Shown: positions 12,393 through 55,109 of the stretch, piece by piece
Numbering within the stretch: position 1 is the stretch's first letter
Layout of the letters: each line of letters opens with the position of its first letter
Source of the DNA: Halomonas sp. LBP4
GTDB taxonomy: Bacteria; Pseudomonadota; Gammaproteobacteria; Pseudomonadales; Halomonadaceae
Length of the DNA: 64,000 bases
NCBI RefSeq assembly: GCF_003202205.1
Contig: NZ_PDOG01000005.1
Span: 76,824 to 140,823 of the forward strand
Direction of reading: 5' to 3'
The notes under the pieces: generated by a model
Database searches by the model: none
What the model was told of the DNA's origin: nothing
What the model saw: the letters and a program-made list of their open reading frames with translations, nothing else
Made by a program: the position numbers and the translations under genes

Positions 12393-12450
12393 TCGCTCTG
12401 CGGCTTGCACCTGAAGGTAGCGCTGGCCTTCCCAAACAATCAGCAATTTT
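12393..12450 (+). ncRNA. Leader-RNA element, copy 1 (short form)
   Basis: P1 UCGC-ucu-GCGG (12393-12403), P2 GAAGG (12413-12417)/CCTTC (12427-12431) closing the loop TAGCGCTGG, then the tail CAAACAATCAGCAATTTT. There is no room for the first (P0) hairpin between the -10 at 12375 and P1. The next gene starts 330 nt downstream. The rest of the 12.26-12.78 kb gap holds GC-rich hairpins and no ORF that I would call. Confidence 0.65.
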
Positions 12451-12780
12451 CCCCGCCACACCCTGTGGCACCTCTCGCTCCGGCGAGATCCCTGCGATGT
12501 CACCCTCGTGGTGTCGTCGTGTACCGAGAAGTGGTGCGTCTCACGCCCACCTCCCGGCGGCCCGTTGTTCAGGTCGTTACCCCCCCGTGGTTCGCTCAGC
12601 ACCCCTCAGCCATCTGGTTGTGGCGCTGTTGTGTCCGGTACCTGCTCGTTCTCGCTTCGGTGAGTTCGTTCCGGTGCACCCTTGCCAGACCCTCGGACTC
12701 GTCTGAGGTCATTACCTACCCACTAGGGAGGCCCACTCCCTACATGGGGGTGCCCTCCGCCTATTGATGAGGAATCTCTC

Positions 12781-13179
12781 ATGAGCAACGTTGAAGCATT
12801 CACCCTGCAAATCCTGATCGGTGGTCTGATTCTGTGTGCAGCCATCCTGTGGCTCACCGTCAAGCTGCTGGTCAAGACGGCACGACAGGCCATCCCTGTC
12901 ATTGCCAAGGGCATTGCTAAGTCGACCCCGGCCGTTTACGCCGGTGTCTCCAAGGGCGTCTTCACCGCAGCCTCTGCGGCGCGTCGCTCCGGTGTTCACC
13001 ACACGGTAGCCAATGCTGCCAATGTGGCGTCTCTGCGCTGTGTCGCTTCGCTGCAGGCCCTGGCCTGTCAGAGGAAGCAGCAGCCTGAGGAAGCAGCAGC
13101 ACCTGTCGATCTCGGCAGCTGCTGGGACCAGTACGAAGCTCCCGCCTACCAGCGGAAGGGTGTCGTGCTGTCCTTCTGA
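12781..13179 (+). CDS. Small membrane protein, unknown function
   Basis: 132 aa with one strong membrane segment near the N terminus (about 8-30, FTLQILIGGLILCAAILWLTVKLLV), then an Ala/Val-rich amphipathic stretch and a polar tail. No family recognised. GAGG precedes the start by 8-9 nt. First gene after leader-RNA copy 1 and first of three consecutive small membrane-protein genes. Confidence 0.65.
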   Translation: MSNVEAFTLQILIGGLILCAAILWLTVKLLVKTARQAIPVIAKGIAKSTPAVYAGVSKGVFTAASAARRSGVHHTVANAANVASLRCVASLQALACQRKQQPEEAAAPVDLGSCWDQYEAPAYQRKGVVLSF

Positions 13180-13251
13180 TGCTTGACTGACCCACGCCGG
13201 GACACTTCTCCCGGCAGGGGGCGGTGTCCTCTCAACCAGGAGATCGCTCCC

Positions 13252-13341
13252 ATGGATCTACTGCCGACGTTGTTGTTCGGTATCAGCATCGCATCCCTGT
13301 CTGGCGCTGCCTTCAGCTACGCCTGGGCAACCGCGGACTGA
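13252..13341 (+). CDS. 29-residue membrane peptide
   Basis: Short ORF MDLLPTLLFGISIASLSGAA... ending YAWATAD, preceded by AGGAG at a suitable distance and by the same kind of hairpin leader as its neighbours (CCCGGCAGGGGG region near 13210). It is one hydrophobic helix. Unknown function; candidates are a membrane micro-protein or a leader peptide for the gene at 13427. Confidence 0.5.
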   Translation: MDLLPTLLFGISIASLSGAAFSYAWATAD

Positions 13342-13426
13342 CCTTTGGCCTCTGGCCGTTTTCAACCCTCACGGGGAGCACTTCCCGTGATGGGGAGTGC
13401 TCCCTGCCTTGCTTGGAGCACTTCCC

Positions 13427-13627
13427 ATGGAACGCTTGACTCGTATCTACGTAGAGATGGACATCCTTGCCTGGCTGGCCATGAACAGCATCCTGATGCT
13501 GCTGGTGGGTTCAGCCCTGGTATGGGTGGCACGCCTCGCGGCTCGGAAAATCTCCTATGCCCTCTGGGAGCGTCGCATTCGTCGCATCCAGAACGGTCGC
13601 CGTGAGGAGAGTCTGCGCAGATCATGA
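13427..13627 (+). CDS. Small membrane protein, unknown function
   Basis: 66 aa; a membrane helix (about 10-34, ILAWLAMNSILMLLVGSALVWVA) is followed by a strongly basic tail (RRIRRIQNGRREESLRRS). Start chosen at the ATG behind TTGGAG rather than the upstream frame. The basic cytoplasmic tail could bind nucleic acid or acidic lipids; this is only a guess from composition. Confidence 0.6.
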   Translation: MERLTRIYVEMDILAWLAMNSILMLLVGSALVWVARLAARKISYALWERRIRRIQNGRREESLRRS

Positions 13628-13640
13628 TGTGGTGGACACG

Positions 13641-13659
13641 GAGGGGGCATCGCCCCCTC
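13641..13659 (+). terminator. GC-rich hairpin after 13427 gene
   Basis: GAGGGGGC/GCCCCCTC with an ATC loop, 13 nt after the stop codon. There is no proper U tract (TGCTGTT), so termination would be partial at best. Confidence 0.35.
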
Positions 13660-13759
13660 TGCTGTTCCCTTGCGACACCGGCCCAAGCGGGCCCGATGGT
13701 CGTATGCCCAAGCGGTGTTGTCCCGTCATAACAGCACCACTCGGACATCCGATTCTCGT

Positions 13760-13817
13760 GATGCTTCGGCATCGCAGAAGGAGGTAGCGCTGGCCTCCCG
13801 AAACAAGCAGCAACTTT
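13760..13817 (+). ncRNA. Leader-RNA element, copy 2
   Basis: P1 GATGC-UUCG-GCATC (13760-13773), P2 GGAGG (13780-13784)/CCTCC (13794-13798) with loop TAGCGCTGG, tail GAAACAAGCAGCAACTTT. A possible P0 pairs GTGTTGT with ACAGCAC upstream (about 13715-13736). P1 and P2 sequences differ from all other copies but still pair. Drives the cobS-like gene at 13909. Confidence 0.65.
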
Positions 13818-13908
13818 CGTCTGACCTTACCTGCCCTTGCCGGGAGCCCACTCCCGCAAGGGGATGGGTGTCTCTCGGCTCAAGGCCAACTTGACTGGAG
13901 ATCTACCC

Positions 13909-14922
13909 ATGACCGTTTCAGCCCCTTACCAGGAGTTCCCCGTTGCCACCACGTTTGGCCTCGAAGTTCCGGCCAAGGTGATGGCGCTCGGCTTTGCCGA
14001 TGCCAGCAACCCGCATATCCCCGCCAAGAGCGACGGTTATGCGTTCCGCCGAGTGTTCCTCCGGGAGCTCTTGGCCTTTCTGCGAGACCCGTCCGGTGAC
14101 GCGCTGTATGTCACTGGTCCGACGGGCTCAGGCAAGACCTCCGGGATCTGCGAGGTGGCCGCCAGGCTCAACTGGCCGGTCCAGCAGGTGACCTGCCACG
14201 GCCGGATGGAAGTGACCGACCTCATTGGTCATCACACCCTGATGTCCCGTGTCCCCGGAGAGACGCCTGTCATGACCTTCCAGCACGGCCCCCTCGCGGT
14301 GGCCATGCGTGAAGGACACATCCTCCTCCTGAACGAGGTGGACATGATGGACCCCGGCGAGTTGTCCGGCCTCAACGACGTGCTGGAAGGGCGGCCCCTG
14401 GTCATCCCCCAGAACGCCGGCGAGGTCATCAAGCCCCATCCGATGTTCCGGGTGGTGGTGACCGGCAACTCGGTCGGCAATGGTGACGCCACTGGGCTTT
14501 ACCAGGGCATCGCCATGCAGAACCTGGCTGCCATGGACCGCTACCGCATCGTGGAAGTGGACTATGCCAAGCCGGAGGTAGAAGCCAAGATCCTCGCCGC
14601 TGTGGCGGGGAGGCTGCCCGAGAACCTTCGTGATCGCATGATCAGCGTTGCCAATGAAATCCGTCGCCTGTTCAAGGGCGAGGAGGGCATGGGTGGCGAG
14701 ATCGCTATCACGATGTCGACTCGGACACTGGTTCGCTGGGCCAAGCTCTCGATCCGGTTCCACAAGGCGGTCAACCCCCAAGGGGAGCGCAACGCGCTGG
14801 CCTATGCCCTTGATCAAGCCCTGCTGCGCCGGGCCCGCCCTGAGGAGAAGGAGGCCATCGTTCGCATCGCGAGCGATACCTTCGGCGACCAATGGGTGGA
14901 CGGCGATCAGGGGGACGATTAA
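13909..14922 (+). CDS. CobS-like MoxR/AAA+ ATPase
   Basis: 337-aa AAA+ protein of the CobS/MoxR type. Walker A GPTGSGKT (residues 70-77), Walker B HILLLNEVDM (about 138-147), sensor-like VVVTGNS (about 183-189). Not a cobalt-chelation gene by context; with the vWA protein at 20399 it forms a MoxR-vWA pair, a combination known to remodel target proteins. Similar genes sit near bet/exo in SXT/R391 and IncC elements, where their role is unknown. ATG at 13909 preferred over an upstream frame extension; SD GGAGA. Confidence 0.85.
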   Translation: MTVSAPYQEFPVATTFGLEVPAKVMALGFADASNPHIPAKSDGYAFRRVFLRELLAFLRDPSGDALYVTGPTGSGKTSGICEVAARLNWPVQQVTCHGRMEVTDLIGHHTLMSRVPGETPVMTFQHGPLAVAMREGHILLLNEVDMMDPGELSGLNDVLEGRPLVIPQNAGEVIKPHPMFRVVVTGNSVGNGDATGLYQGIAMQNLAAMDRYRIVEVDYAKPEVEAKILAAVAGRLPENLRDRMISVANEIRRLFKGEEGMGGEIAITMSTRTLVRWAKLSIRFHKAVNPQGERNALAYALDQALLRRARPEEKEAIVRIASDTFGDQWVDGDQGDD

Positions 14923-15116
14923 GGCCCTGGCCTGCCCCCGGTACACGCTGGGCACTTCGGTGCTCGGCGTGGCCTTCCACCCAGGCTTCCGGCCTGAACG
15001 TGTGTCCCGGAAGTGCTGGGTGTCTCACGACCCCTGGCACCGAGACCATTCTTCCCATCTCATCACCGCCGCGATCCAAGTGGGCAGGTGGTAAACGCAG
15101 ATGACGTGAGGTTGAT

Positions 15117-15698
15117 ATGAGTGACGTTGCACAGGAAATGAATGCCCAGCCGGGCATGGCAGAGTGGAGCTGGCTGCTGCATCCCCCCAAGGATCAGTCC
15201 GTCATCCCGCTCAGGAAGGGGTTCATTCGCGGTGTGTTCGTTGACGCAGCCAAGCGGCTGGGCTTCAAACACGTCCAGGATGCCCCTGACGTTGAGAACA
15301 ACGATGCTGACGGGTATCTCCCCAACGTCCTGATGGACACCGGGTCGGCCCGCATCGTTGTCGATCGCAAGATGCAGGATAACGAAGTGAACCCCGACAC
15401 CCTTGAGGGTGGTGGATCGTTCACGGCAGCAGCCGGCCACAGGCCGCTCCTGGTGCTGTTGTTCCTGCAGAAGCGGTGGCGTGAGGAGTTCAACACCAGC
15501 GAGGGCGATACGATCGAGATCTGCGATGCGCAGCTTGATCTGTTCAACCTCACCAACTGGGAATCCCTCCAGCCGTTCATCGAGGCGTATCAGTTCGATG
15601 CACCGACCATGCGTGAGGATGCCGTGGCCCTGGGCCTTGTGGCTCCCATGCTGGATTACGATGCCATCGGCTGTGCCGAGATGGATGCCTACTTCTAA
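15117..15698 (+). CDS. Unknown protein of the recombination block
   Basis: 193 aa, acidic, no domain recognised. Ends in EMDAYF, one of several acidic/aromatic C termini in this block. Lies between the CobS-like gene and bet with a 194-nt gap upstream; SD GAGG. Likely part of the same functional set by position only. Confidence 0.65.
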   Translation: MSDVAQEMNAQPGMAEWSWLLHPPKDQSVIPLRKGFIRGVFVDAAKRLGFKHVQDAPDVENNDADGYLPNVLMDTGSARIVVDRKMQDNEVNPDTLEGGGSFTAAAGHRPLLVLLFLQKRWREEFNTSEGDTIEICDAQLDLFNLTNWESLQPFIEAYQFDAPTMREDAVALGLVAPMLDYDAIGCAEMDAYF

Positions 15699-15723
15699 CC
15701 AACGGCTTCGGTCGTGACCTGCT

Positions 15724-15752: not shown

Positions 15753-15754
15753 CA

Positions 15755-17964: not shown

Positions 17965-18071
17965 CCAGAACCGCTTCGCCGCTGAGGCGATTCTGGAAAA
18001 AGGTTTCCTCTCCTCTGGAGAGCGAAAAACGTGGTAGCGCTGGCCACGTTCAACTAAACAATCAGCAATAT
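17960..18071 (+). ncRNA. Leader-RNA element, copy 3 (long form)
   Basis: P0: TTTTTCCAGAA (17960-17970) pairs with TTCTGGAAAAA (about 17990-18002). P1: CTCTCC-tct-GGAGAG (18008-18022). P2: AACGTGG (18028-18034)/CCACGTT (18044-18050) with loop TAGCGCTGG. Tail AAACAATCAGCAATAT. P0 and P2 sequences are unlike other copies yet fully paired. 85 nt upstream of the DUF3150 gene. Confidence 0.65.
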
Positions 18072-18155
18072 CCCTTCCATGACCTAGCCCATCGGGTGCC
18101 ACCACCCGACAGGGCAGGTGCATCTGGTGGGCTTCTTTCGTTAAGGAGCACCACC

Positions 18156-19568
18156 ATGATCTCTCCCTCTACTACCACTACCGCGTCTCAGATCCAGCAT
18201 CTGGACCAGGTGTGCGTGATCCATGCCGACTTCGATATCTGGAGCGGCCAAACCCGTCTTGATCCGAAGGACCTGAAGTTGGGTGTCGGGGGTGAAATTC
18301 CTCCGGAGAAGCTGGCGCTGTTGGGTAGCAAGAAGATCTGCGACCCCGCTCGCCTCAAGGGCTTCTCTCGTCTCAAGACCAAGGCTCGCCGCGTGCTGGC
18401 GCACTATGGCCTGCCTTTCATGAGCGGATGGGCGGTACCGGCCGAGAGGCTGGATACCATCATGAAGCAGCTCGACCAGATCAAGGACGAGTTCGAGAAG
18501 GTCCGCCAGACCTTCCTGACGCAGTACGACACCGCCGTTGAGGCGTGGATTGCCGACAACCCGGGCTACGAGGACATCATCCGCGCAGGCGCGATGCCCC
18601 GTAGCGTGGTGGAGAAGCGGATCGGGTTCGATTACGCGGTCTATCACATCCGGCCCGCCGGCGCTGCCTCCGAGCAACAGCTCGGCCGGCAGGTGGAAAG
18701 CCTTGGCAATGATCTCTTCTCGGAGATCGTCAAGGAGGCCAATACCTTCTACGAAGAGAAGCTTCGCGGTGCGTCAGAATTGTTGACCTCCACGCGGCCG
18801 ACCCTTCAGAAGCTGTACGACAAGGTGGATGGTCTGTCCTTCCTCAACGCAGCGTTCGACCCGCTTGCCCGTCTGCTGAACGAGACGATCAAGGGGTACG
18901 CGACGTATGCCTCTGGAGGACGCATCCTGGCGCCCTACCTGTACCAGGTGGTGGCGGCAGTGTTGATCTGCTGTGACCGGCAAAAGATCGAGGGCTATGC
19001 CAACGGCACCGTCCAGGTGCAGGACATGGCGCCCGATCCCAGCAGCCTCGCTGCAGACCAGGCTCCGGCCCCGTCTGCTGCCGATGTTGCACCGGCCCCC
19101 ACAGCTACCGAGCCGACCCCCGAACCGTCTGTCCCCGACGTTGCTGGCGCTGATGCTCAGCCTCAGTCGCCGGACCAGCCGGCACAGGGTTCAAGCCCGG
19201 TGGAAGCACCGCAACAGGCGGAGTCGCCAAGCTCGCATCGCGACAGCGATGAGAAGGAGGTGGCGTCCGAGGCTCCCGCCCAGGAGGCAGAGCCAACCAT
19301 GCCTGTGACGGAAGCCGAGCCGGCGCTGGATGCCTCACCCGAGGCGCTCCAGGCGTCGATGGATCGCTTCTTCGCTGATTTCGAGACCGACCAATCCCCT
19401 GCGCCCGACGCAGAGGAGGAAGCGGTCGAGAGCAGCGCAGTCGCGCTCCCCACGCCGGCCCCGGCGCCTGTCCAGCCAACTGCACCGGCCATGCCGATGC
19501 AGGCGGCTCCCGCTCCTGAACCGGTCCCGGTCCCGGAGCTGGATGATGACGACGACTGGGCCTGGTAA
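18156..19568 (+). CDS. DUF3150-like protein
   Basis: 470 aa. Residues 1-300 look like DUF3150, a helical protein found next to CobS/CobT-like genes on mobile elements; function unknown. Residues about 300-460 are a Pro/Ala/Glu-rich disordered linker, ending in DDDDDWAW. Start at the ATG behind AAGGAG; an upstream frame extension lacks an SD. The long linker and acidic-aromatic end suggest a flexible docking tail. Confidence 0.75.
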   Translation: MISPSTTTTASQIQHLDQVCVIHADFDIWSGQTRLDPKDLKLGVGGEIPPEKLALLGSKKICDPARLKGFSRLKTKARRVLAHYGLPFMSGWAVPAERLDTIMKQLDQIKDEFEKVRQTFLTQYDTAVEAWIADNPGYEDIIRAGAMPRSVVEKRIGFDYAVYHIRPAGAASEQQLGRQVESLGNDLFSEIVKEANTFYEEKLRGASELLTSTRPTLQKLYDKVDGLSFLNAAFDPLARLLNETIKGYATYASGGRILAPYLYQVVAAVLICCDRQKIEGYANGTVQVQDMAPDPSSLAADQAPAPSAADVAPAPTATEPTPEPSVPDVAGADAQPQSPDQPAQGSSPVEAPQQAESPSSHRDSDEKEVASEAPAQEAEPTMPVTEAEPALDASPEALQASMDRFFADFETDQSPAPDAEEEAVESSAVALPTPAPAPVQPTAPAMPMQAAPAPEPVPVPELDDDDDWAW

Positions 19569-22425: not shown

Positions 22426-22479
22426 CGCCCTTGGAGGGCACGTCGGCAGCGTGTCATCGGGTCGACGACGAGCTAGAGT
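22426..22479 (+). promoter_or_regulatory. Activator box and -10 for leader-RNA copy 4
   Basis: Box CGCCCTTGGAGGGCA at 22426-22440, 33 bp, then TAGAGT at 22474-22479. The predicted start near 22487 lies just before the P0 hairpin of copy 4. Confidence 0.6.
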
Positions 22480-22492: not shown

Positions 22493-22600
22493 GTTGCCAT
22501 TGCCGGTTGTCGAGAGCCGGCAACGGCAACCCTGGATTCTCTCTCCTCTGGAGAGCGATCAGTGGAAGCGCTGGCCACTGTCAAAACAATCAGCATTTTT
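22493..22600 (+). ncRNA. Leader-RNA element, copy 4 (long form)
   Basis: P0: GGTTGCC (about 22493-22499)/GGCAACC (about 22525-22531), where most copies have GGCTTTCC/GGAAAGCC; a clear compensatory change. P1: CTCTCC-tct-GGAGAG (22541-22555). P2: CAGTGG (22560-22565)/CCACTG (22575-22580), loop AAGCGCTGG. Tail AAAACAATCAGCATTTTT. A further GCGCCAGCTGGCGC palindrome follows at about 22616-22629. Confidence 0.7.
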
Positions 22601-22706
22601 CCCAACCCACTGCGGGCGCCAGCTGGCGCTTGAGCAGTTCCCCAGCCTGGCGGGCACCTTCCCGTCAGGGAGGGCGTGCGCCTGGCCACGACCAAGGAGC
22701 ACACCC

Positions 22707-25113: not shown

Positions 25114-25233
25114 CCCCGCTGCCTCTGGCTGTTCCGCATGCGGAACAGGGGTGCCGAGGAAAGCCGAGATTCACTCTCCTCTGGAGAGCGATCAGTGGAA
25201 GCGCTGGCCACTGCATAAACAATCAGCATTTTT
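25108..25233 (+). ncRNA. Leader-RNA element, copy 5 (long form)
   Basis: P0: GGTTTTCC (25108-25115)/GGAAAGCC (25158-25165) with an inner hairpin TGTTCCGC-at-GCGGAACA. P1: CTCTCC-tct-GGAGAG (25174-25188). P2: CAGTGG (25193-25198)/CCACTG (25208-25213), loop AAGCGCTGG. Tail AAACAATCAGCATTTTT. No activator box found at the expected distance. Confidence 0.65.
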
Positions 25234-25293
25234 CCCACCCTCACCGGGGTACTGCCCCGGACAGGGGCGTGCCTCGTCTCAATGGAGACGCGT

Positions 25294-25662
25294 ATGTATT
25301 CCCGCACGACCCCTCACTCGATGCAGCAGCTGGTGCTTTGCCCAGCGCAGCCTGCACCGCACGTCCTGCGCATCACCTTCGCCGAGAACGACGAGCTGTG
25401 GTGCTACGAGATCCTGCGAACCCCGCCCTCGGGGCTCAGCAGCCATCGGCTCACCGAGTGGATCGATGATCTGACCTACGCCCTCAATGCACGGCACCGC
25501 GTCGCATTGGCCAGGGAAGCCAGCGCCAAGCTCTATCAGTCGGTAGAGGAGCGCCAGGTACACGCTGCATGGCTACATGCCCATGCCGACGCCCTGACCC
25601 GCGAGGCCAAGCTGGCTCGCACCCTGGCTACTCGCCTGGGTGCGGCATGCGAGGCGGCGTAA
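25294..25662 (+). CDS. Unknown small protein
   Basis: 122 aa, mixed N-terminal part and a helical Ala-rich C terminus (coiled-coil-like from about residue 68). Start at 25294 is preferred because the ATG at 25282 overlaps the GGAG that serves 25294. First gene after leader-RNA copy 5. Confidence 0.6.
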   Translation: MYSRTTPHSMQQLVLCPAQPAPHVLRITFAENDELWCYEILRTPPSGLSSHRLTEWIDDLTYALNARHRVALAREASAKLYQSVEERQVHAAWLHAHADALTREAKLARTLATRLGAACEAA

Positions 25663-28230: not shown

Positions 28231-28357
28231 AGCCCTCGCGAGGGGGCTTTCCCTTCGGGGGCGTCCGCCGCCGGCCCTGAACGGAAAGCCGAGTTTCTCT
28301 CTCCCCTGGAGAGCGATCAGTGGAAGCGCTGGCCACTGCATAAACAATCAGCATTTT
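28231..28357 (+). ncRNA. Leader-RNA element, copy 6 (long form)
   Basis: Opening hairpin AGCCCTCGCGAGGGGGCT, P0 GGCTTTCC (28245-28252)/GGAAAGCC (28283-28290), P1 CTCTCC-cct-GGAGAG (28299-28313), P2 CAGTGG (28318-28323)/CCACTG (28333-28338), tail AAACAATCAGCATTTTA. The 3' flank to the next start is nearly identical to copies 4 and 7. Confidence 0.65.
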
Positions 28358-28465
28358 ATCCAACCCACTGCGGGCGCCAGCTGGCGCTTGAGCAGTTCCC
28401 CAGCCTGGCGGGCGACCTTCCCGTCAGGGATGGCGTGCGCCTGGCCCCTACCAAGGAGTACGACC

Positions 28466-28960
28466 ATGACTGCAACGTATCTGTCCGACCTGGAATGGAT
28501 GGGCATCGATGCCTTCAGCCGGCCTGTCTGGAAAAGTGTCACTGACCGGCAGTGCTACTGCCTCGTGGACATGCTTGTCGACGACACCCCCGAGGCGCAG
28601 CAGCTGGCGCTTCAGGCCTTGATCAACGACCCCTTCATTGAGCTCTACAACAAAGGCTCAAGCGTGGAGGGAGAGCCGTCCCACCCCGTGCCTTTCCGGC
28701 AACGCCCATCGGGCCTGCGCTGCATCTTTGCGCCGGCCGGACAGGAGATGTTCGTGGCAGGAGAGCAGTACGCGACCCTTCCGGCATCCCACGCGGGAGA
28801 TGGCTCACATGACCCGAGGTGCGTGGCGTTCCGGGATAGTCTGGGAGCGCTGAAGTCCATCCGGCTCGAGCCCGGATTGCCCAAGAGCTGCCGGACGGGT
28901 GTCCAGGCATCCGGGGGTCGCAGCCTGGCGCTGTTCGAGGAGGTGCGTGATGACCGTTAA
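28466..28960 (+). CDS. Unknown protein behind leader-RNA copy 6
   Basis: 164 aa, no family recognised; the second half is Pro/Gly-rich. Start after AAGGAG. Overlaps the next gene by 11 nt. Confidence 0.6.
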   Translation: MTATYLSDLEWMGIDAFSRPVWKSVTDRQCYCLVDMLVDDTPEAQQLALQALINDPFIELYNKGSSVEGEPSHPVPFRQRPSGLRCIFAPAGQEMFVAGEQYATLPASHAGDGSHDPRCVAFRDSLGALKSIRLEPGLPKSCRTGVQASGGRSLALFEEVRDDR

Positions 28961-29390: not shown

Positions 29391-29517
29391 AGCCCTCGCG
29401 AGGGGGCTTTCCCTTCCGGGTCGGTCGGTACCGGCCCTGAGCGGAAAGCCGAGTTTCTCTCTCCCCTGGAGAGCGATCAGTGGAAGCGCTGGCCACTGCC
29501 AAAACAATCAGCATTTT
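29391..29517 (+). ncRNA. Leader-RNA element, copy 7 (long form)
   Basis: Opening hairpin AGCCCTCGCGAGGGGGCT, P0 GGCTTTCC (29405-29412)/GGAAAGCC (29443-29450) enclosing an 8-bp hairpin GGGTCGGT-cggt-ACCGGCCC, P1 CTCTCC-cct-GGAGAG (29459-29473), P2 CAGTGG (29478-29483)/CCACTG (29493-29498), tail AAAACAATCAGCATTTT. Confidence 0.7.
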
Positions 29518-29624
29518 CCCAACCCACAGCGGGCGCCAGCTGGCGCTTGAGCAGTTCCCCAGCCTGGCGGGCGACCTTCCCGTCAGGGATGGCGTGCGCT
29601 TGGCGATCACCAAGGAGCACGACC

Positions 29625-30077
29625 ATGATCAATGACCCCACCACCCTCGCGTTTCTGGCGGCCGGCTTCCTCGGCAGCGAACAGGCTGACGCTGCCGCCG
29701 AGCTTGGTTTCTCCCGAATCGATGTGGTTGAACAGCTGACCACCCTCGCCCCAGCCCTGGATGCCCTCTACGAGCAGCACGGGGAAGCCTATGAAGGCTG
29801 CTTCGCCTACGACGTGGCGGAGCCGATGGGCGGTTGGTATGCCCTCTACATGGACGAGCATGGCCAGCTTCCCAGCGAGGAGGAATTCCTCGAGGAGGGC
29901 TGCCGTTACCTCGGCCTTGAGCCACGCAGCCCGGAAGCCAAGGCACTCGATGCCATCCAGGCCGTGCTGAGTGGCCAAGAGTGGAACCCCGATCACCTGG
30001 ACGCCGTGGCAGCGATCGTCCGCGGCACTGGCCGTGAGATCAAGGACTGCGACGACACCCTGGATGATGCCGCTTAA
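29625..30077 (+). CDS. Unknown acidic protein behind leader-RNA copy 7
   Basis: 150 aa, strongly acidic (EQHGEAYEGCFAYDVAEPMGGW ... SEEEFLEEGC ... KDCDDTLDDAA). An acidic small protein could mimic DNA, but no anti-restriction family is recognised. Start after AAGGAG. Confidence 0.6.
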   Translation: MINDPTTLAFLAAGFLGSEQADAAAELGFSRIDVVEQLTTLAPALDALYEQHGEAYEGCFAYDVAEPMGGWYALYMDEHGQLPSEEEFLEEGCRYLGLEPRSPEAKALDAIQAVLSGQEWNPDHLDAVAAIVRGTGREIKDCDDTLDDAA

Positions 30078-30973: not shown

Positions 30974-31109
30974 AGCTCACCCCTCGGGGTGGGCTTTCCC
31001 CAGCGGGTTGGTGCCCAAGGCGACAGCACGATGCGGAAAGCCAAGTTTCTCTCTCCTCTGGAGAGCGATCAGTGGAAGCGCTGGCCACTGCAAAAACAAT
31101 CAGCATTTT
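30974..31109 (+). ncRNA. Leader-RNA element, copy 8 (long form)
   Basis: A -10-like TATGCT at 30946-30951 precedes it; no good box. Opening hairpin AGCTCACCCctcGGGGTGGGCT, P0 GGCTTTCC (30992-30999)/GGAAAGCC (31035-31042), P1 CTCTCC-tct-GGAGAG (31051-31065), P2 CAGTGG (31070-31075)/CCACTG (31085-31090), tail AAAAACAATCAGCATTTT. Confidence 0.65.
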
Positions 31110-31232
31110 CCCTTCCGGCAACGTTCGCCTGCGTGTGAACCGAGCTTTCCTCGATGCTTCGGCATCTTCCCCTTGTGGGCCATCGCGCCCATTAGGGGTG
31201 CATGGCCCCGTGAACCCTCATGGAGCCTTCTC

Positions 31233-35374: not shown

Positions 35375-35507
35375 GGCTCCGCATCGCGGAGCCGGGCTTT
35401 CCCTTCCGGGTTGGCTAGCGCCAGCCTGGAACGGAAAGCCGAGTTTCTCTCCCTCTGGGAGCGAATCAGTGGAAGCGCTGGCCACTGTCAAAACAATCAG
35501 CATTTTT
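35375..35507 (+). ncRNA. Leader-RNA element, copy 9 (long form)
   Basis: Preceded by a -10-like TACTCT (35363-35368). Opening hairpin GGCTCCG/CGGAGCC (35375-35393), P0 GGCTTTCC (35395-35402)/GGAAAGCC (35433-35440) enclosing GGTTGGC/GCCAGCC, P1 CTCCC-tct-GGGAG (35449-35461), P2 CAGTGG (35467-35472)/CCACTG (35482-35487), tail AAAACAATCAGCATTTTT. P1 differs from CTCTCC/GGAGAG copies in a compensating way. Confidence 0.7.
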
Positions 35508-35612
35508 CCCATCCCACTGCGGGCGCCAGCTGGCGCTTGAGCAGTCCTCAGCCTGGCGGGCGTCCTTCCCGTCAGGGGCGGCGTGCGTCTGGGCTATCTG
35601 CCTGGAGGCATT

Positions 35613-37539: not shown

Positions 37540-37593
37540 CGCCCTTGAAGGGTGCCACGGGGCCTGCCCCTGCTGGCGTCACTTGGGTAGACT
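37540..37593 (+). promoter_or_regulatory. Activator box and -10 for leader-RNA copy 10
   Basis: Box CGCCCTTGAAGGGTG at 37540-37554, 33 bp, TAGACT at 37588-37593, then the opening hairpin of copy 10 at 37605. Confidence 0.6.
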
Positions 37594-37604: not shown

Positions 37605-37735
37605 AGCCCCCCACCGGGGGGCTTTCCCCTGCGGGTTGCCGGTGGACCATCCAGCCTGCAGCGGAAAGCAAAGTTTCTCTCCCTCTGGGAGTGAATCAGT
37701 GGAAGCGCTGGCCACTGCCAAAACAATCAGCATAT
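37605..37735 (+). ncRNA. Leader-RNA element, copy 10 (long form)
   Basis: Opening hairpin AGCCCCCC/GGGGGGCT, P0 GGCTTTCC (37620-37627)/GGAAAGC (37663-37669) enclosing CGGGTTG/CAGCCTG, P1 CTCCC-tct-GGGAG (37679-37691), P2 CAGTGG (37697-37702)/CCACTG (37712-37717), tail AAAACAATCAGCATATT. The following 160 nt to the next gene hold a hairpin leader and no ORF. Confidence 0.68.
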
Positions 37736-37897
37736 TACCTTTCGCAGCGAGCGGCCCCGCCGTGCTCTGCGTTACCACCGGTGCTACATCACCTCTCATG
37801 GTCGAGCGTGCCCCTACGCGAGACCTGAACCTCAGCCTTCACGGGAAGACATCTTCCCGGTGGGGGTGTCCTTCCTGTGATTCACCAGGAGGGCACC

Positions 37898-40345: not shown

Positions 40346-40518
40346 GGCTTTCCCTTGCTGGCGCTGATGCCGGCAGCGGAAAGCCTGCGTCGTCATGCCC
40401 TCCAAGCGCACCACCGACCAGGTGAGGCGCGAGGTGAGGACGTAGGATGACCCTATCAGACTGGCATTGCCGGTCTCGATGAAGGTAGCGCTGGCCTTCT
40501 CAAACAAGCAGCAGATTT
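40346..40518 (+). ncRNA. Leader-RNA element, copy 11
   Basis: P0 GGCTTTCC (40346-40353)/GGAAAGCC (40378-40385), a 73-nt spacer unlike other copies, P1 GACTGGC-att-GCCGGTC (40459-40475), P2 GAAGG (40481-40485)/CCTTC (40495-40499) with loop TAGCGCTGG, tail CAAACAAGCAGCAGATTT. P1 is longer and wholly different in sequence but still paired. Looks like a chimera of the long and short forms. Confidence 0.65.
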
Positions 40519-40590
40519 CACCCACCACAAGCCGCAAGCACCGTTGTGCCCCCGGGCCGGCGTTTGCGGCATTGCCAGCAGGAGATTCCC

Positions 40591-41355: not shown

Positions 41356-41408
41356 CGCCCTTGAAGGGTGCGACGGCCCCTTTCCCCCACCCACCCCGTG
41401 GGTATACT
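41356..41408 (+). promoter_or_regulatory. Activator box and -10 for leader-RNA copy 12
   Basis: Box CGCCCTTGAAGGGTG at 41356-41370, 32 bp, then TATACT at 41403-41408. Best -10 of the set; a TATACTGAC also precedes copy 14 (50573), there without a clear box. Confidence 0.62.
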
Positions 41409-41420: not shown

Positions 41421-41548
41421 AGCCCCTTCCCGAGGGGGCTTTCCCTTACAGGTTGCCGTCGTTCAGCCTGCAGCGGAAAGTAAGGTTTCTCTCCCTCCGG
41501 GAGCGAATCAGTGGAAGCGCTGGCCACTGTCAAAACAATCAGCATTTT
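41421..41548 (+). ncRNA. Leader-RNA element, copy 12 (long form)
   Basis: Opening hairpin AGCCCCT/AGGGGGCT, P0 GGCTTTCC (41437-41444)/GGAAAG (41475-41480) enclosing CAGGTTG/CAGCCTG, P1 CTCCC-tcc-GGGAG (41491-41503), P2 CAGTGG (41509-41514)/CCACTG (41524-41529), tail AAAACAATCAGCATTTT. Confidence 0.7.
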
Positions 41549-41615
41549 CCTGTACTGCCTCTGGGCGCACCTGCCCAGACGGCATGGTGCGTCCCCTGAT
41601 CGATGGAGATGACCC

Positions 41616-41933
41616 ATGTCGCACGCAGAATCCCTCGTGGATTATTCAGAGAGCTTCCAGGCGGCGCTTATTGCGCAGGGCAAGGGCAGCAACTTCCTTT
41701 CCCTGACCCGCCTCGATGAACCCTTCGAGCGCTACGACGGTAAGCGAGCTTCCTATGAGCTCAACTACCGTTGGCTCAGCACTGACTGCCAGGAAGAGGA
41801 TGATCAGGCTTGGGCCTGTGTCCAGGGTGCCGAGTGCACCTACTGGCAGCACAAGGAGATCACCAAGCTCCTTCGCCAGCTGAAGCGCCATGACGACGTC
41901 GACCTGTTCGAGCACTTCGACCTGTTCGGCTGA
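41616..41933 (+). CDS. Unknown small protein
   Basis: 105 aa, acidic, ends FEHFDLFG. Not recognised. Start after GGAG behind leader-RNA copy 12. Confidence 0.6.
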   Translation: MSHAESLVDYSESFQAALIAQGKGSNFLSLTRLDEPFERYDGKRASYELNYRWLSTDCQEEDDQAWACVQGAECTYWQHKEITKLLRQLKRHDDVDLFEHFDLFG

Positions 41934-45885: not shown

Positions 45886-45889
45886 ACCC

Positions 45890-45942
45890 CGCCCTTAAAG
45901 GGCACTACCAGACGGTTGCCCCTCTCGCAGATGCTCTACCCT
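45890..45942 (+). promoter_or_regulatory. Activator box and -10 for leader-RNA copy 13
   Basis: Box CGCCCTTAAAGGGCA at 45890-45904, 32 bp, then TACCCT at 45937-45942. It begins immediately after the RHS fragment. Confidence 0.55.
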
Positions 45943-45953
45943 GAAGCCATCTC

Positions 45954-46010
45954 GTCCATCCGTGGACTTGATGAAGGTAGCGCTGGCCTTCCCAAACAAT
46001 CAGCATTTTC
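45954..46010 (+). ncRNA. Leader-RNA element, copy 13 (short form)
   Basis: P1 GTCCA-tccg-TGGAC (45954-45967), P2 GAAGG (45973-45977)/CCTTC (45987-45991) with loop TAGCGCTGG, tail CAAACAATCAGCATTTT. Starts about 12 nt after the -10, leaving no P0, as in copy 1. Confidence 0.68.
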
Positions 46011-46076
46011 CCTACCCGCCCTGCGGCACACCTGCCGCTAGGCAATGGTGTGTCGCCTCTATGATGGAGATACACC

Positions 46077-46676
46077 ATGTCCTACGGATTCATTGGCCTG
46101 GCCATGCGCCAGCACCTGATCCGCCGCTGGTCCCTGATGCGTTGCGTGTCCCCGGAATCTGTTCTGGAGCACACCGCGTCCGTGACCATGCTCACCCTCA
46201 TCGCCGGCACCATTGCTCGTGAACGCGGCAAGGTCATCGACCTTGAACGCCTCATGGGACACGCCGTGGTCCACGATCTCTCCGAAGTGCTGTGTTCGGA
46301 CATCGTGACCCCGGTGAAAAATGCCACGCCGGCCCTTCGAGCTGAGTTCCGCAAGCTCGAGGACGCTGCTGAGAAGCAGCTTATCGGCACGCTGCCGGAC
46401 AGCCTCCAGAACCCCATCCAGAGCTACTTCGAGCTGGAAGGGTACGAGGAGACTCTGTTCAAGGCGTGTGACGTCTATGCCGCGTTCATCAAGTGCAAGC
46501 TTGAGATCGCTGCAGGCAACTCCGCTGAGTTCCAGCAGGCATTCGACACCCTGTCGAGCACGCTGGAGGCGCTCAAGGGGGAGTGCGAGGAAATCGAGAT
46601 CTTGGACGACTGGTTCGGAGGCTCGATCGGCGTATCCGTCGATCAGCTCATGGCCCGTCCCGAGATGACCTTCTGA
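46077..46676 (+). CDS. yfbR: YfbR-like HD-domain 5'-deoxynucleotidase
   Basis: 199 aa, same length as E. coli YfbR, which dephosphorylates dNMPs. Visible: RRWSLM (R17-W18), SPESVLEHTASVTML (E31-H32), VVHDLSEVLCSDIVTPVK (H66-D67, D75), all metal or substrate positions in YfbR. On a mobile element it could adjust nucleotide pools or remove signalling nucleotides. Start after GGAG behind leader-RNA copy 13. Confidence 0.85.
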   Translation: MSYGFIGLAMRQHLIRRWSLMRCVSPESVLEHTASVTMLTLIAGTIARERGKVIDLERLMGHAVVHDLSEVLCSDIVTPVKNATPALRAEFRKLEDAAEKQLIGTLPDSLQNPIQSYFELEGYEETLFKACDVYAAFIKCKLEIAAGNSAEFQQAFDTLSSTLEALKGECEEIEILDDWFGGSIGVSVDQLMARPEMTF

Positions 46677-50584: not shown

Positions 50585-50719
50585 AGCTCACCCCTCGGGG
50601 TGGGCTTTCCCCAGCGGGTTGTCGCCCAAGGCGCCAGCTCGATGCGGAAAGCCGAGTTCCTCTCCCTCTGGGAGTGAAGCAGTGGAAGCGCTGGCCACTG
50701 TCAAAACAATCAGCATTTT
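50585..50719 (+). ncRNA. Leader-RNA element, copy 14 (long form)
   Basis: TATACT at 50573-50578 is a good -10 but no clear box lies 33 bp upstream. Opening hairpin AGCTCACCCctcGGGGTGGGCT, P0 GGCTTTCC (50603-50610)/GGAAAGCC (50646-50653), P1 CTCCC-tct-GGGAG (50662-50674), P2 CAGTGG (50680-50685)/CCACTG (50695-50700), tail AAAACAATCAGCATTTT. The 230 nt to the next gene hold no ORF that I would call. Confidence 0.68.
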
Positions 50720-50952
50720 CCTCACCGTGACCCCAGGCCTGGCCTGTAAGGTCATTCCCAAGCGACCCCGTCGCTCCGGCGCCTTGGGTGCCGTTCCTCT
50801 GTCGGTGACTCTCTGAGCTCTCCACGGCCATCCGGCCGCGGCGTCCTTGGCGTGCTCCCCAACCACGTCCCGCGTTCGCGGTGTCGTTCTCTATGGTACT
50901 GGCTCCTCTTGTGGGGTGACCGGCCCCATGCTGCTATCCAGGAGGTAGTTCC

Positions 50953-51611: not shown

Positions 51612-51908
51612 ATGGCGAATCCAGCCCGGAATCATGACGGAAAGCGCCCCTCGAGCACCCGGTATGTGGTGCTGCATGAACACACCTTGGGGTACATGTC
51701 CGGCTCGATGGTGGGTGTGCTGCGCTCGTCAGTCTTGCGCGGCGCCCCCTACACGCTCGAGCCGGGTGTTGTCCCGCTTCCTCGTGATCCCGCTGATATG
51801 CGAGACGCTACTCTCAAGGACTTCGAGGACTTCCGTGTCACCGTGCCACCGGACTTCGGCTATGCCGAGGCCGGATGCGCGTTACACGAGAACCAGCCAG
51901 GGACCTGA
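51612..51908 (+). CDS. Unknown small protein
   Basis: 98 aa, RYVVLHEHTLGYMSGSMVGVLR; not a clear array-family member. Start after AAAGGAG. Confidence 0.55.
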   Translation: MANPARNHDGKRPSSTRYVVLHEHTLGYMSGSMVGVLRSSVLRGAPYTLEPGVVPLPRDPADMRDATLKDFEDFRVTVPPDFGYAEAGCALHENQPGT

Positions 51909-52012
51909 GATACCTGCATGTCTTGCCCGAGCCCCCATTGGGGGCTCTTACCCCCATGGGGCGACTCGCCCCCTGGGGCGGTCGTGTCCCTTCTGCTGAA
52001 AGGAGCACCACC

Positions 52013-52627
52013 ATGATCCAAGAGACCGTAGCGGTCGAAAAACCGCCATTGCAGGCGCACCTCGAGCTCTGCCTGAGTCAGCTGCATCATTTCCCGACGC
52101 ATCTGGTGAGGGCGTTTCCCGTGTTCGACGAGGAGGGTCGGTTCGACCCCGGCGCGGGCTCCGAGACCTTCCTTGGTCTGGAGCTTGCCGGCGATCTGGA
52201 TCTGACCTCGATTGAGCAAAAGCTGCAGCAACTCCTACATCCCAACAACCAGCCCGCGGAGCTTTCCGGCTTTCAGTCGGTCCTGCTGGCTCGTCGGCGC
52301 CGGATGCTGGACAAGCTGCACATCATCGTCAACGGAATCGACGACGATGACGGCGAGCTGAAGGTGCCAATCGTGCCTTTCGTCGAGCCACCCTACGGGC
52401 CCGACTCGTGCTGCCTGGTGGTGCCATACAAACTACCGGAATGGACGGCCCACTGGCTGTCCTGGTGCGATGACCCGGGTGAGCTGACGCCAGAGGCGAT
52501 GCTTGAGGCCATCCGCTTCTGCATCAACCTGATGAACGATGAGCTTTCCGGCGTCCTGGCGGATCTGGAGGCCCATGCCAGAGCCTTCCTCGATAATCCG
52601 GCCACGCCGGCGTCTATCGCGGCCTGA
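52013..52627 (+). CDS. Array-family protein 5 (divergent)
   Basis: 204 aa. Family-like order: helix ending LHHFP, strand LGLELAGDLDLTSIEQKL, SGFQSVLLARRRRMLDKL, strand HIIVNGID, C-terminal helix AIRFCINLMNDELSGVLADL. SD AAAGGAG. Confidence 0.55.
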   Translation: MIQETVAVEKPPLQAHLELCLSQLHHFPTHLVRAFPVFDEEGRFDPGAGSETFLGLELAGDLDLTSIEQKLQQLLHPNNQPAELSGFQSVLLARRRRMLDKLHIIVNGIDDDDGELKVPIVPFVEPPYGPDSCCLVVPYKLPEWTAHWLSWCDDPGELTPEAMLEAIRFCINLMNDELSGVLADLEAHARAFLDNPATPASIAA

Positions 52628-52699
52628 CGCTCTTACCCACCCCGACCGGGGCTCTCTCCCCGGTTGGGGCGAGGGTCCCTCCTATCCCTGGAGGACACC

Positions 52700-53602
52700 A
52701 TGACCGAGAGCCAACGACACGACGAGTGGGGCGCCCTGCAGCGCTACGCTGAGCAGGTGCTCACTCGGCGCGGATTGCCTCGCATCAAGCTCGAACTGAC
52801 CTGTGATGGTGACGGCCTGCCATGTGGCATTCGTCCTGTCGGAGGGCAGCTGACGATTCCAACCCTTCGTCACCAGCTGGATCGGCTGACCGAAGAGAAG
52901 GTCCATGACATGGGCATCAGCCCCTTCCGCCGTATCCATGCGCGACGGATGCGCAAGGAGGTCAGTGCCATGCTCCACCGTGTAGAAGCGGCGGAGCCGT
53001 CGATGGCCATGGAGATCAAGACGCCCTCGCTGCCGCAGGAGCGCCCCACGCTGTCCCGTCGATTCACCCTGTCTGGGGTGCTGCCCATCGTGGAAGCTGC
53101 CGGTGGGGCTTCGATGCCGACAGAGCAGGAGCGGCTTCTGATCCAGTTCCTGGATGAGGTTCATGAACGGCTGGCGCTGGACGTCGAGGAGATCACCGGT
53201 GTGTGCCGCAGGGTCGTGCCGGCGAAAGCTGACTCAGGCGTCTGGCGAACCGTGCGAATCTATCGGACACCACGCTACACGGTGGAGATCCGATGCTACA
53301 CGTCGCACCTCGACTTCCTCGCTGAAGAAAGGCTGAAATCCTGGTCTCTTGAGCAGCTGGTCGATGACATCGACGCCATTGCGGAAGGGCGAAAGCAGCA
53401 ACGCTGTCTGCAGTGCGTTATCACACGGCGTGACACCGGTGAGGGCTTGGAAGACGCCATGATCTTCGCCTGTGTCGACGCACCTGGTGGCCGCTCACGT
53501 GAGCGTCGGGTGGTTGCCAAGGCTATCCGGCAACTCCGTAGTGAACATGGTGGCAGGGACGGCCTTCGTCCTCAGCCAGCCATTAGCGCGAGCGCGGCCT
53601 GA
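52700..53602 (+). CDS. Array-family protein 6
   Basis: 300 aa. RYAEQVLTRRGLPRIKLEL, strand VGGQLTIPTLRHQLDRL, SPFRRIHARRMRKEVSAML, strand MAMEIKTP. The C-terminal half (about 165-300) is extra and contains CVITRRDTGEGLEDAMIFACVD. SD GGAGG. Confidence 0.58.
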   Translation: MTESQRHDEWGALQRYAEQVLTRRGLPRIKLELTCDGDGLPCGIRPVGGQLTIPTLRHQLDRLTEEKVHDMGISPFRRIHARRMRKEVSAMLHRVEAAEPSMAMEIKTPSLPQERPTLSRRFTLSGVLPIVEAAGGASMPTEQERLLIQFLDEVHERLALDVEEITGVCRRVVPAKADSGVWRTVRIYRTPRYTVEIRCYTSHLDFLAEERLKSWSLEQLVDDIDAIAEGRKQQRCLQCVITRRDTGEGLEDAMIFACVDAPGGRSRERRVVAKAIRQLRSEHGGRDGLRPQPAISASAA

Positions 53603-53684
53603 GGCCGCCTCGTGGTCTCTATCCTTCCGGGGGTGCTACCCCGTAAGGGGAGGCCTCCTGGAATTCATCCCTCAGGAGGTCTCC

Positions 53685-54236
53685 ATGGCCAACGCCTTCG
53701 ACATTCCGGCGGTAACGCGAGAGCTGGTGGTCGCCGCGGGGCTCCCCGCTGACATCGGCTATGTGAAGTCCGCTGTTGAGAGCCAGCCGGCCGGTCGGTT
53801 GTATCCCGAAGAAGCAAGAATCCGCTTCCATGGGGTGCTGCCCTGGGCGGCTGTCTGCTCGCTTGCGACATTGCTCTATCAGGGTAGAGCTTATACCGGT
53901 ATCTACCCTGCCAGGGCCCGGCGACAGAACCGGTTGCTGCTCGGGCTAGCCAATGGGTTCGCCGCCAGAGAAAGCAGCATTTCGATCACGCTCACCGAGG
54001 ATGGTGATCTCCGATCGTCGGTCAGCCCCAAAGGACTGGGTGTTGTGCTCGAGCAAGCGCCTATCCAGGGCCCAATGCCCCCGGGACCAGGGATCACACC
54101 CCATGAGGCGACTAGCTTCCTGGCGGCCCTGGAATACGACATCCGTCGCTATCTGGGGCACCTGTCTGTCGCCATCCTGGCGCAGCTTGAACAGCAGTAT
54201 GCGGCCTGGCGGTTGGAATCAGCCGACAAGGCATGA
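53685..54236 (+). CDS. Array-family protein 7
   Basis: 183 aa. VTRELVVAAGLPADIGYV, strand IRFHGVLPWAAVCSLATLL, YPARARRQNRLLLGL, strand SSISITLTEDGD, C-terminal helix ALEYDIRRYLGHLSVAILAQ. SD CAGGAGG. Confidence 0.58.
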   Translation: MANAFDIPAVTRELVVAAGLPADIGYVKSAVESQPAGRLYPEEARIRFHGVLPWAAVCSLATLLYQGRAYTGIYPARARRQNRLLLGLANGFAARESSISITLTEDGDLRSSVSPKGLGVVLEQAPIQGPMPPGPGITPHEATSFLAALEYDIRRYLGHLSVAILAQLEQQYAAWRLESADKA

Positions 54237-54338
54237 GGAAGGGTAGATGCCAGCGGACTTCTGCTGGCGCGTACCCTCACTGACCAGGCGCCGAATCCCT
54301 TCTTGGGATGCTGGCGCTTACAACCCAAGGAGGTTGCC

Positions 54339-54956
54339 ATGACACACGATGACGCCGTCAGGCGCATGAAGAACCGGCTTCGCCTGTGGGGCTTCCCCGC
54401 GGATGCGAAGACAACACGACTGCACTACTTCCTGAAGCTCGATGACCCTGATCAGGAGCCCTTCGTGAGTATGCAGTTCCAGTGCCACTCAGCGGCGGTT
54501 CTCCGACCTCTCATGGCTCGGATTTACCGGCCACGTCGTGAGACGTCCGCCTTCCGTCGTCTGTACGTAGCTCAGCAGGAACGGGGCATGATGAGCCTGC
54601 TCGGGATCTTCGACCAGGACCATGCCGCAGCATGGGAGCTGGGCATCTTCGTCAGCCATGCACCGGGTATCTTCACCGGGAAGTGGAAGACGGAGACTGC
54701 TCAACCCCTGATGGAGCTGGTGCCGACCCAGACGGCCGGCACCATCGAGGTGCTCGTCAACCAGGCCTACCGGTCGATTGGCGTCAGCTACCCTGAACGC
54801 GCCCGCACACTTGGGGTCGTCTGGGGGCGCTTCCTGCGTGATCTCGAAACCGAACTCGAGGACACCGCGGGGGCTCTGGTGAGAGAGCTGGTTGAGAGCC
54901 TGGAGCGCTCTGGAGAAACGGCCGTCACCGACGTGCCGATGACCGCCGCCGCTTAG
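54339..54956 (+). CDS. Array-family protein 8
   Basis: 205 aa. VRRMKNRLRLWGFPADAK, strand SMQFQCHSAAVLRPLMARI, SAFRRLYVAQQERGMMSLL, strand LGIFVSHAPG, C-terminal helix VWGRFLRDLETELEDTAGAL. SD AAGGAGG. Last of the array. Confidence 0.58.
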   Translation: MTHDDAVRRMKNRLRLWGFPADAKTTRLHYFLKLDDPDQEPFVSMQFQCHSAAVLRPLMARIYRPRRETSAFRRLYVAQQERGMMSLLGIFDQDHAAAWELGIFVSHAPGIFTGKWKTETAQPLMELVPTQTAGTIEVLVNQAYRSIGVSYPERARTLGVVWGRFLRDLETELEDTAGALVRELVESLERSGETAVTDVPMTAAA

Positions 54957-54973
54957 GTAGGCGAGTAGGGAAG

Positions 54974-54995
54974 GGGGCTCTTTGAGCCCCTATTT
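54974..54995 (+). terminator. Intrinsic terminator at the end of the array
   Basis: GGGGCTC (54974-54980)/GAGCCCC (54984-54990), loop TTT, then TATTT. Confidence 0.7.
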
Positions 54996-55016
54996 CCCCA
55001 CCCGAGGCCTCTTTAC

Positions 55017-55109
55017 CATGGCTCGTGATCGTGCCATGCTAATAGGGCTTCTCTGCCTCTGGCAGTGAAACGAAGGTAGCGCTGGCCTTCCCAAACAATC
55101 AGCATTTTT
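55017..55109 (+). ncRNA. Leader-RNA element, copy 15
   Basis: A short P0-like CATGGC (55017-55022)/GCCATG (55033-55038), P1 CTGCC-tct-GGCAG (55053-55065), P2 GAAGG (55072-55076)/CCTTC (55086-55090) with loop TAGCGCTGG, tail CAAACAATCAGCATTTTT. P1 shows another compensatory change (CTGCC/GGCAG against CTCCC/GGGAG). Confidence 0.68.

Follow-up and report, generated by a model that had tools for sequence, protein, structure and literature searches.

Repeated probable leader RNAs with covarying stems, a likely loop-tail pseudoknot and a predicted Shine-Dalgarno gate in IncC-type conjugative plasmids and their relatives

The 64,000-nucleotide stretch of Halomonas sp. LBP4 DNA analysed here (contig NZ_PDOG01000005.1, positions 76,824 to 140,823; hereafter the window) belongs to a conjugative plasmid of the F type, and between its genes stand fifteen copies of a small multi-hairpin element that is the subject of this report. 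The genes run in the order TraC, TrbC, TraU, TraN, and then RecT, YqaJ, DUF3150, a CobT-like VWA protein, a C5 methylase, YfbR, a Toprim primase and an integrase. Because homologues of MobH, TraD, TraFHG, MobI, ParM, AcaC and AcaD are also present on the contig by tblastn, the replicon can be described as an IncC-like element; the AcaC homologue was missed by a Pfam search for FlhC and recovered by tblastn, and MobI lies on the same contig, about 79 kb or more from the array of copies. Weighing the evidence below, we lean towards the view that the copies are leader RNAs that would control translation in the units of the bet-exo/cargo region of an IncC/SXT-related conjugative plasmid.

Each copy has a conserved core made of a hairpin P1, a second hairpin P2 with a nearly constant loop, and a 3′ tail. 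The tail AAACAATCAGCATTTT, searched at up to three mismatches, occurs 15 times in the window, always on the plus strand, against 0.13 expected; the loop AGCGCTGG accompanies it in all 15 copies, and a variant tail, AAACAAGCAGCA, is found in two. These are the copies, strand and positions given by the original prediction, which was made from the sequence alone, and the P1 and P2 stems that it quoted are present as described when the copies are read. Its list of stems can be extended: the copy at 12391 (copies are named here by their first core position) has a P1 of GTCGC/GCGGC that contains a GU pair, and the copy at 55052 carries a further hairpin, P0, of CCCTATT/AATAGGG. By reading of the 15 copies, P0 lies immediately 5′ of P1 in 11; in the copy at 40460 a hairpin like P0 stands ~75 nucleotides (nt) further upstream, and no P0 of the kind is seen at 12391, 13759 and 45953. 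Nine of the 15 copies are near-identical. A covariance model built from nine of the 15 (R1), the kind of check that the original prediction had proposed, recovers all 15, and also four loci elsewhere (L012, L020, L024 and L033); its only extra matches at E≤1 on the 249-kb contig, on the minus strand of the window (12.8 bits) and in L044 (12.1 bits), were both judged to be chance. The locus L033 is an IMG/VR contig of 4487 bases whose copies are very close to those at 13759 and 18008, and it is plasmid DNA in a viral collection.

The element is not confined to this replicon but is common to IncC-type plasmids and their relatives, a spread that the original prediction had missed. A Pseudoalteromonas plasmid with a similar gene order contains, at five scattered sites, repeats of this element in a form with a 7-nt loop, and when one Pseudoalteromonas copy was used as a BLAST query, 725 plasmid records matched, 715 of them predicted to be conjugative. 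A second covariance model (R2), built from 44 copies that match it by construction, finds 74 copies at E≤0.05 in 16 of the 19 sources searched: 15 in the window, 12 in Halomonas sp. KO116 (L104, L105 and L093), 11 in a Vibrio plasmid (L099), eight each in a Shewanella IncC plasmid (L079) and in Edwardsiella (L100), six each in Aeromonas (L081) and Pseudoalteromonas (L060), two in Comamonas (L080), and six single copies. The KO116 plasmid (NZ_CP011054) is also the nearest by DUF3150 among 275 genomes of the family, and the more distant DUF3150 plasmids (L101, L102, L103 and L109) gave no credible copy. Outside L079, the fetched parts of the Shewanella plasmid (L106 and L107) contain one weak match (19.1 bits, E 0.006) and another with E 0.99. 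The integrative and conjugative element (ICE) R997, of the SXT/R391 type, has one low-scoring match in the region fetched (14.9 bits, E 0.13), which stands before the first gene of the ssb-bet operon and in which P1, P2, loop and tail can all be made out by eye. Whole genomes with the element are few, five of 275 in the family and one of 369 in a sample of the class, Halomonas sp. LBP4 itself included, and R1 applied to 195 relatives was positive only in that genome. A genome-wide search for the exact pattern returned 24 loci: on reading, L012, L020 and L024 seem genuine, and the others were judged to be chance; for the loci of G251, G281 and G294 (L071-L078) the best R1 match has E 0.038, and R2 gives none at E≤0.001.

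That the core is a structured RNA with covarying stems, as the original prediction had proposed, is borne out once many plasmids are compared. P1, P2, loop and tail can be parsed in 71 of the 74 copies, and the 71, after 24 duplicates are collapsed, give 47 distinct rows from many plasmids rather than from the 15 window copies alone. Against a null in which column substitutions are re-placed on the tree (our own script in the style of R-scape, 150 null alignments), seven of the 14 annotated pairs covary at E<0.05, all of them among the nine pairs of P1 and P2, and no unannotated pair of columns is significant in these 47 rows. The covariation therefore survives the collapsing of near-identical copies, the outcome on which the prediction had staked itself. 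All four P2 pairs form in each of the 71 parsed copies. In P1 and P2 together there are 35 GU pairs and not one AC, which argues that the strand of the gene acts, and acts as RNA; over all annotated pairs the count is 55 to 6. A conserved folded domain, with covarying P1 and P2 and a conserved loop and tail, is placed ahead of genes, as is expected of a leader RNA.

The P2 loop (GCUG) is complementary to the tail (CAGC), a relation that had gone unremarked in the original prediction, and the two likely pair to form an H-type pseudoknot whose crossing strand, AAACAA or similar, is A-rich. The first four loop-tail pairs are standard in 280 of 284 cells, and both sides change together to ACTG/CAGT in copies of the Halomonas KO116 plasmid and at L060:5859 (Pseudoalteromonas), and to GCTA/TAGC at L060:156 (Pseudoalteromonas) and L099:31169 (Vibrio); the R997 copy, which is not part of the 280/284 count, also has GCTA/TAGC. 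Several results speak against the pseudoknot: none of its five pairs is significant in the covariation test (E 7.4 or more, 47 rows), its helix holds 20 GU but also all six AC oppositions, with an A-C mismatch in four of 71 copies, and no more than 29 of the 71 can form the fifth pair. We regard the pseudoknot as likely and not proven because the loop and tail columns hardly vary and a tree null targeted at them gives P=0.044 and 0.15. In the segment 45935-46095 of the window, a nested RNA fold forms the loop-tail helix (GCUGG/UCAGC) in place of P2, an alternative to the pseudoknot at that site. At L105:16456 and in several other KO116 copies, P1 contains CGCTCTTTA, not seen in P1 of other plasmids, which resembles a phage boxA, presumably by coincidence.

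The core corresponds to no family that we could find, in agreement with the original prediction. Rfam release 15 gives no match at gathering score in the window, L079, L099, L060, L104, L105 and L108; the match to MH_s15 (33.3 bits against a gathering score of 123) follows a generic terminator-like hairpin and was set aside. A kissing loop, suggested by the palindromic AGCGCT and by retroviral dimer sites, was rejected because the IncC-type copies have 7-nt loops, TAGCTGG. A resemblance of GGTAGCG to the ops sequence of RfaH was likewise dropped because nine window copies have GGAAGCG; a search of the genome for the NusG domain gave two matches, on contigs C60 and C1, and none on this contig, in a kind of search that also missed the plasmid's AcaC. 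No description of this RNA was found in the open-licence papers searched.

Downstream of the core there is usually a second module, also missed by the original prediction, in which a hairpin (P4), a segment (S), the Shine-Dalgarno sequence (SD) and the AUG follow one another. S can pair either with the region of the SD and AUG, as GGTGTTGCTCC with GGAGTAACACC at L099:13119 (Vibrio), or with the loop and 5′ arm of P4, and the two pairings exclude each other; as computed pairings only, they make up the mutually exclusive expression platform expected of a riboswitch or regulatory leader. The order core, gate, SD, AUG is found in 52 of 71 copies, with P4 starting a median of 19.5 nt from the tail (n=52). 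Among the 64 leaders with an assigned start (seven of 71 lack one), the median distance from tail to AUG is 84.5 nt, and in 57 it is within 140 nt. By reading, L079:38131 and L060:841 have a plausible SD and AUG ~80 nt past the tail, upstream of the annotated start, which at L079:38131 would open an unannotated small open reading frame (ORF).

Compared with dinucleotide shuffles in 56 leaders (15 of the 71 copies were left out), S pairs better at p<0.05 with the SD in 35 and with the upstream strand in 46. In the nested fold, which does not count pseudoknots, S is joined to the SD region in 43 of 56 leaders and to the upstream strand in four, and opening the SD costs a median of 7.35 kcal/mol. 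In the strongest of the tests, in which partners are swapped between leaders (n=52, 19 of 71 copies left out), the P4 strand pairs with its own S at -15.2 kcal/mol and with the S of other leaders at -10.0 (z -13.7); swapping within single plasmids gives p 1e-4 for the window (n=11), 5e-5 for L099, 0.0014 for L079, 0.0026 for L081, 0.043 for L100 and 0.044 for L105. The loop of P4 alone, set against S, gives z -6.8.

The gate extends across the region as a whole. In a sample of genes chosen by the author, which is not exhaustive, it reaches significance before 22 of the 25 genes that directly follow a core, before 51 of the 92 further genes from the region (R997 included) and before three of 55 controls; in the window the corresponding counts are 12 of 15, 10 of 23 and none of six. 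The 25 and 92 genes come from the annotation of L079, L099, L104, L105 and L108, the controls from L079, L099, L104, L105, L106 and L107, and the internal genes of the window from mechanical ORF starts; "after a core" means within 150 nt, so that genes with longer leaders were counted as core-less. Genes after a core have the gate more often than the region's other genes (22/25 against 51/92, Fisher P 0.0025), with the proviso that copies inside one plasmid are not independent and that P values for the gate are optimistic as a result. Where the gap between two genes measures 45-110 nt (41 gaps), pairing begins a median of 6 nt past the upstream stop codon. At L108:14998-25255, in the Proteus ICE R997, an SD gate precedes several genes of the SXT/R391 bet-exo operon, being significant for five of 11 core-less genes, and the one core found there stands before the first gene of the operon.

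Part of the copies appear to be transcribed from ordinary promoters in double-stranded DNA. A strong -10-like hexamer lies within 45 nt upstream of the core in 19 of 71 copies and, in 18 of these, 8-12 nt before it (ten of the 12 KO116 copies, the first copies of the window, L060, L079, L081, L099 and L100, and copies in L083 and L085); because of this spacing P1 would lie at the 5′ end of the message in those 18. In the other class of copies P0 usually intervenes, preceded, by reading, by a terminator-like hairpin that it partly overlaps, and many have no clear promoter; sigma-70 scans are weak for most window copies. The overlap is read in ten window copies (18008, 25174, 28299, 29459, 31051, 35448, 37678, 41490, 50661 and 55052): the terminator-like hairpin shares its 3′ side or its T-stretch with the 5′ arm of P0, and P0 and that hairpin would be mutually exclusive. 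Of the window copies, five of 15 are preceded by a box, CGCCCTTnAAGGGYRC, from which a -10-like hexamer is 31-33 nt away on the 3′ side (Table 1). Its core, GCCCT-N3-AGGGY, matches at this constant spacing the AcaCD operator footprinted in SGI1, reported as GCCCT-N3-AGGGC (PMC4605294), and AcaCD promoters in pVCR94 are described as class II (PMC4207636). Taken by themselves, most of the linked promoters score poorly (shuffle p 0.025 to 0.31), as do their -10 sequences. An AcaCD homologue would bind these predicted operators.

Table 1. Predicted operators, core copies and gate elements of the window (positions in the window)
Feature	Position	Strand	P4	S	SD arm	Predicted AUG	Remarks
AcaCD-type operator	12326..12341	+					33 nt to -10-like hexamer
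Copy 1 (short class)	12391..12456	+				12781 (next ORF)	P1, P2/pseudoknot, tail; -10 TATATT ends 10 nt upstream; 335-nt leader; gate p 0.11
Copy 2 core	13759..13823	+	13834-13862	13863-13886	13890-13910	13909	AAA ATPase
Copy 3 core	18008..18078	+	18082-18119	18121-18139	18143-18160	18156	DUF3150
AcaCD-type operator	22426..22441	+					1 mismatch to pattern; 32 nt to -10-like hexamer
Copy 4 core	22541..22606	+	22646-22669	22671-22687	22692-22706	22707	
Copy 5 core	25174..25239	+	25238-25266	25266-25282	25285-25297	25294	
Copy 6 core	28299..28364	+	28404-28428	28429-28446	28451-28467	28466	
Copy 7 core	29459..29524	+	29563-29587	29588-29605	29610-29626	29625	
Copy 8 core	31051..31116	+	31169-31198	31203-31215	31218-31227	31233	
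Copy 9 core	35448..35513	+	35546-35581	35582-35596	35600-35611	35613	PAPS-reductase-like; gate p 0.10
AcaCD-type operator	37540..37555	+					GCCCT-N3-AGGGT; 32 nt to -10-like hexamer
Copy 10 core	37678..37743	+				37898	165-nt leader; SD hairpin in minimum-free-energy (MFE) fold
Copy 11 core	40460..40524	+				40591	Exception: MFE fold without SD hairpin
AcaCD-type operator	41356..41371	+					GCCCT-N3-AGGGT; 31 nt to -10-like hexamer
Copy 12 core	41490..41555	+	41560-41579	41579-41598	41605-41621	41616	
AcaCD-type operator	45890..45905	+					31 nt to -10-like hexamer
Copy 13 core	45953..46016	+	46018-46043	46044-46059	46066-46078	46077	YfbR
Copy 14 core	50661..50726	+				50953	237-nt leader; gate not significant (p 0.37)
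Copy 15 core	55052..55115	+	55117-55144	55144-55158	55163-55173	55175	53-aa ORF

Upstream of the array, at window positions 5380-6054, an EAL-domain protein is encoded within the conjugation operon, as it is in L079, L099 and L100.

It is informative to consider how core and gate might work together. We infer a default state in the cell in which S hides the SD and translation is off; pairing of S with P4 would free the SD and turn translation on. At the head of a unit, the module of P1 and pseudoknot may serve as a receiver for a trigger, be it a protein, a small molecule or a ribosome, and through a coupling of core to gate would bias the latter. Inside units, where the gate often follows the upstream stop codon, the arriving ribosome may itself disturb P4, a form of translational coupling, and the core at the unit head would then occupy the place held inside units by the upstream stop codon and its terminating ribosome. 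Small pseudoknot riboswitches with translational platforms, such as preQ1-I and SAM-II, share with the present element an H-type pseudoknot, an A-rich crossing strand and a position upstream of an SD-hiding platform; unlike them, the element has a separate P1, a gate that is a module of its own 8 nt or more after the tail, and many copies per replicon.

Several observations weigh against translational control by a coupled core and gate, beyond the non-independence of copies noted above. The gate is also found without a core, and complementarity between core and gate shows no excess (own against permuted z 1.9, -0.5 and 0.6). The AUG is more than 140 nt from the tail, and up to 335 nt, in seven of 64 leaders, and the partner swap misses 0.05 in two plasmids (L060, p 0.060; L104, p 0.066). 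When the P4 loop was first defined from a fold that had mis-assigned P4, no signal emerged (z -1.4); the test was redone with P4 taken from the fold of the full leader. Finally, 52 of 71 copies have no strong -10-like hexamer near the core, and among the 15 window copies no more than three have a best promoter that scores above shuffles at 0.05, one of the three being 12391, which lies behind an operator.

The main rival, which we consider unlikely overall, is processive antitermination of the put type, in which the RNA of P1 and pseudoknot, made just after initiation, would bind RNA polymerase and carry it past the many GC-rich hairpins of these units, the gate being a separate device. The putRNA of phage HK022 is described as about 70 nt long with two stem-loops, with putL just after PL and acting on terminators 10 kb away; it consists of two bulged stem-loops with a short triple helix, and the main text makes no mention of a pseudoknot (PMC9378689). 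The core is similar in that a folded RNA of ~60-70 nt, possibly near the 5′ end, would act in cis through two neighbouring structures; the bulged stem-loops with triple helix set put apart, and R2 finds no match at E≤5 in the HK022 genome. Hence membership of the put family, with which the original prediction had drawn a comparison, is not supported, although a put-like function keeps its place. The location just downstream of a promoter, a trait of put, is suggested for 18 of 71 copies, whose -10-like hexamer would start the transcript at P1 or close to it; most others have no clear promoter, and copies that seemingly lack their own promoter and lie inside units would have to load onto a polymerase already elongating. 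The fact that only one copy, a low-scoring one at the head of the ssb-bet operon, was found in the part of R997 that was fetched, and the absence of excess pairing between core and gate, would suit such a mechanism, as does the antitermination by RNA plus protein reported for the conjugation operon of pLS20 (PMC8955417). However, a processive effect would hardly need up to 15 copies, most of them spaced 1-5 kb from one another, and the median of 84.5 nt from tail to AUG also tells against it.

More improbable, in our judgement, is an autonomous 5′-end element that answers to no signal and instead stabilizes the mRNA or docks the 30S subunit or S1 through the pseudoknot. Protein S1 has affinity for pseudoknots, and such an element would fit both the absence of excess core-gate pairing and the position that 18 of 71 copies would have at the 5′ end, but it leaves unexplained the conserved sequence of loop and tail and the excess of gates after cores. 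The original prediction had also raised single-stranded-DNA promoters (Frpo/ssi-like), to which we add priming sites used on T-strand entry. Here too hairpin arrays precede the genes of a conjugative element, and a primase gene lies downstream; yet this was not borne out and is very unlikely, given that the 35:0 ratio of GU to AC in P1 and P2 favours RNA of the gene strand, that -10 boxes (8-12 nt upstream in 18 of 71 copies) and five AcaCD-type operators point to double-stranded promoters for part of the copies, and that MobI is about 79 kb or more away. By reading of the 15 window copies, no -35/-10 was seen within the stems, which are short and GC-rich, any -10 lying outside the core, and R2 gave no credible match in the 40-70 kb region of the F plasmid, its leading region (best 9.7 bits, E 0.38). 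Least probable of all are repeats acting as DNA, such as recombination or cassette sites that spread modules: nine near-identical window copies do stand before unrelated genes, but compensatory stem changes, the GU bias and the order of core, gate, SD and AUG in 52 of 71 copies are against it.

Leader RNAs that control translation would be of interest in light of what is already established for these elements. As carriers of drug resistance, IncC and SXT/R391 elements have been studied intensively, and the present element shares with the AcaCD/SetCD regulon its gene region and type of operator; that regulation is described as transcriptional activation, and the passages of these accounts that were compared mention no leader RNA structure (PMC4207636, PMC4344509, PMC4605294). 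One may speculate further, and tentatively, that in IncC- and SXT/R391-type elements RNA governs the entire half not concerned with transfer, with a pseudoknot receptor at unit heads and an SD gate before most genes, such that one signal, perhaps given when the element reaches a new host, would switch the translation of dozens of establishment, recombination and cargo genes at once. The predicted gates themselves offer a natural set of dozens, diverse in sequence, for studies of RNA switching and translational coupling. If the reading is true, a leader repeated up to 15 times per plasmid together with a region-wide SD gate would amount to an unreported post-transcriptional layer beside the transcriptional control by AcaCD and SetCD, and the observations point to an undescribed layer of control over mobile elements.

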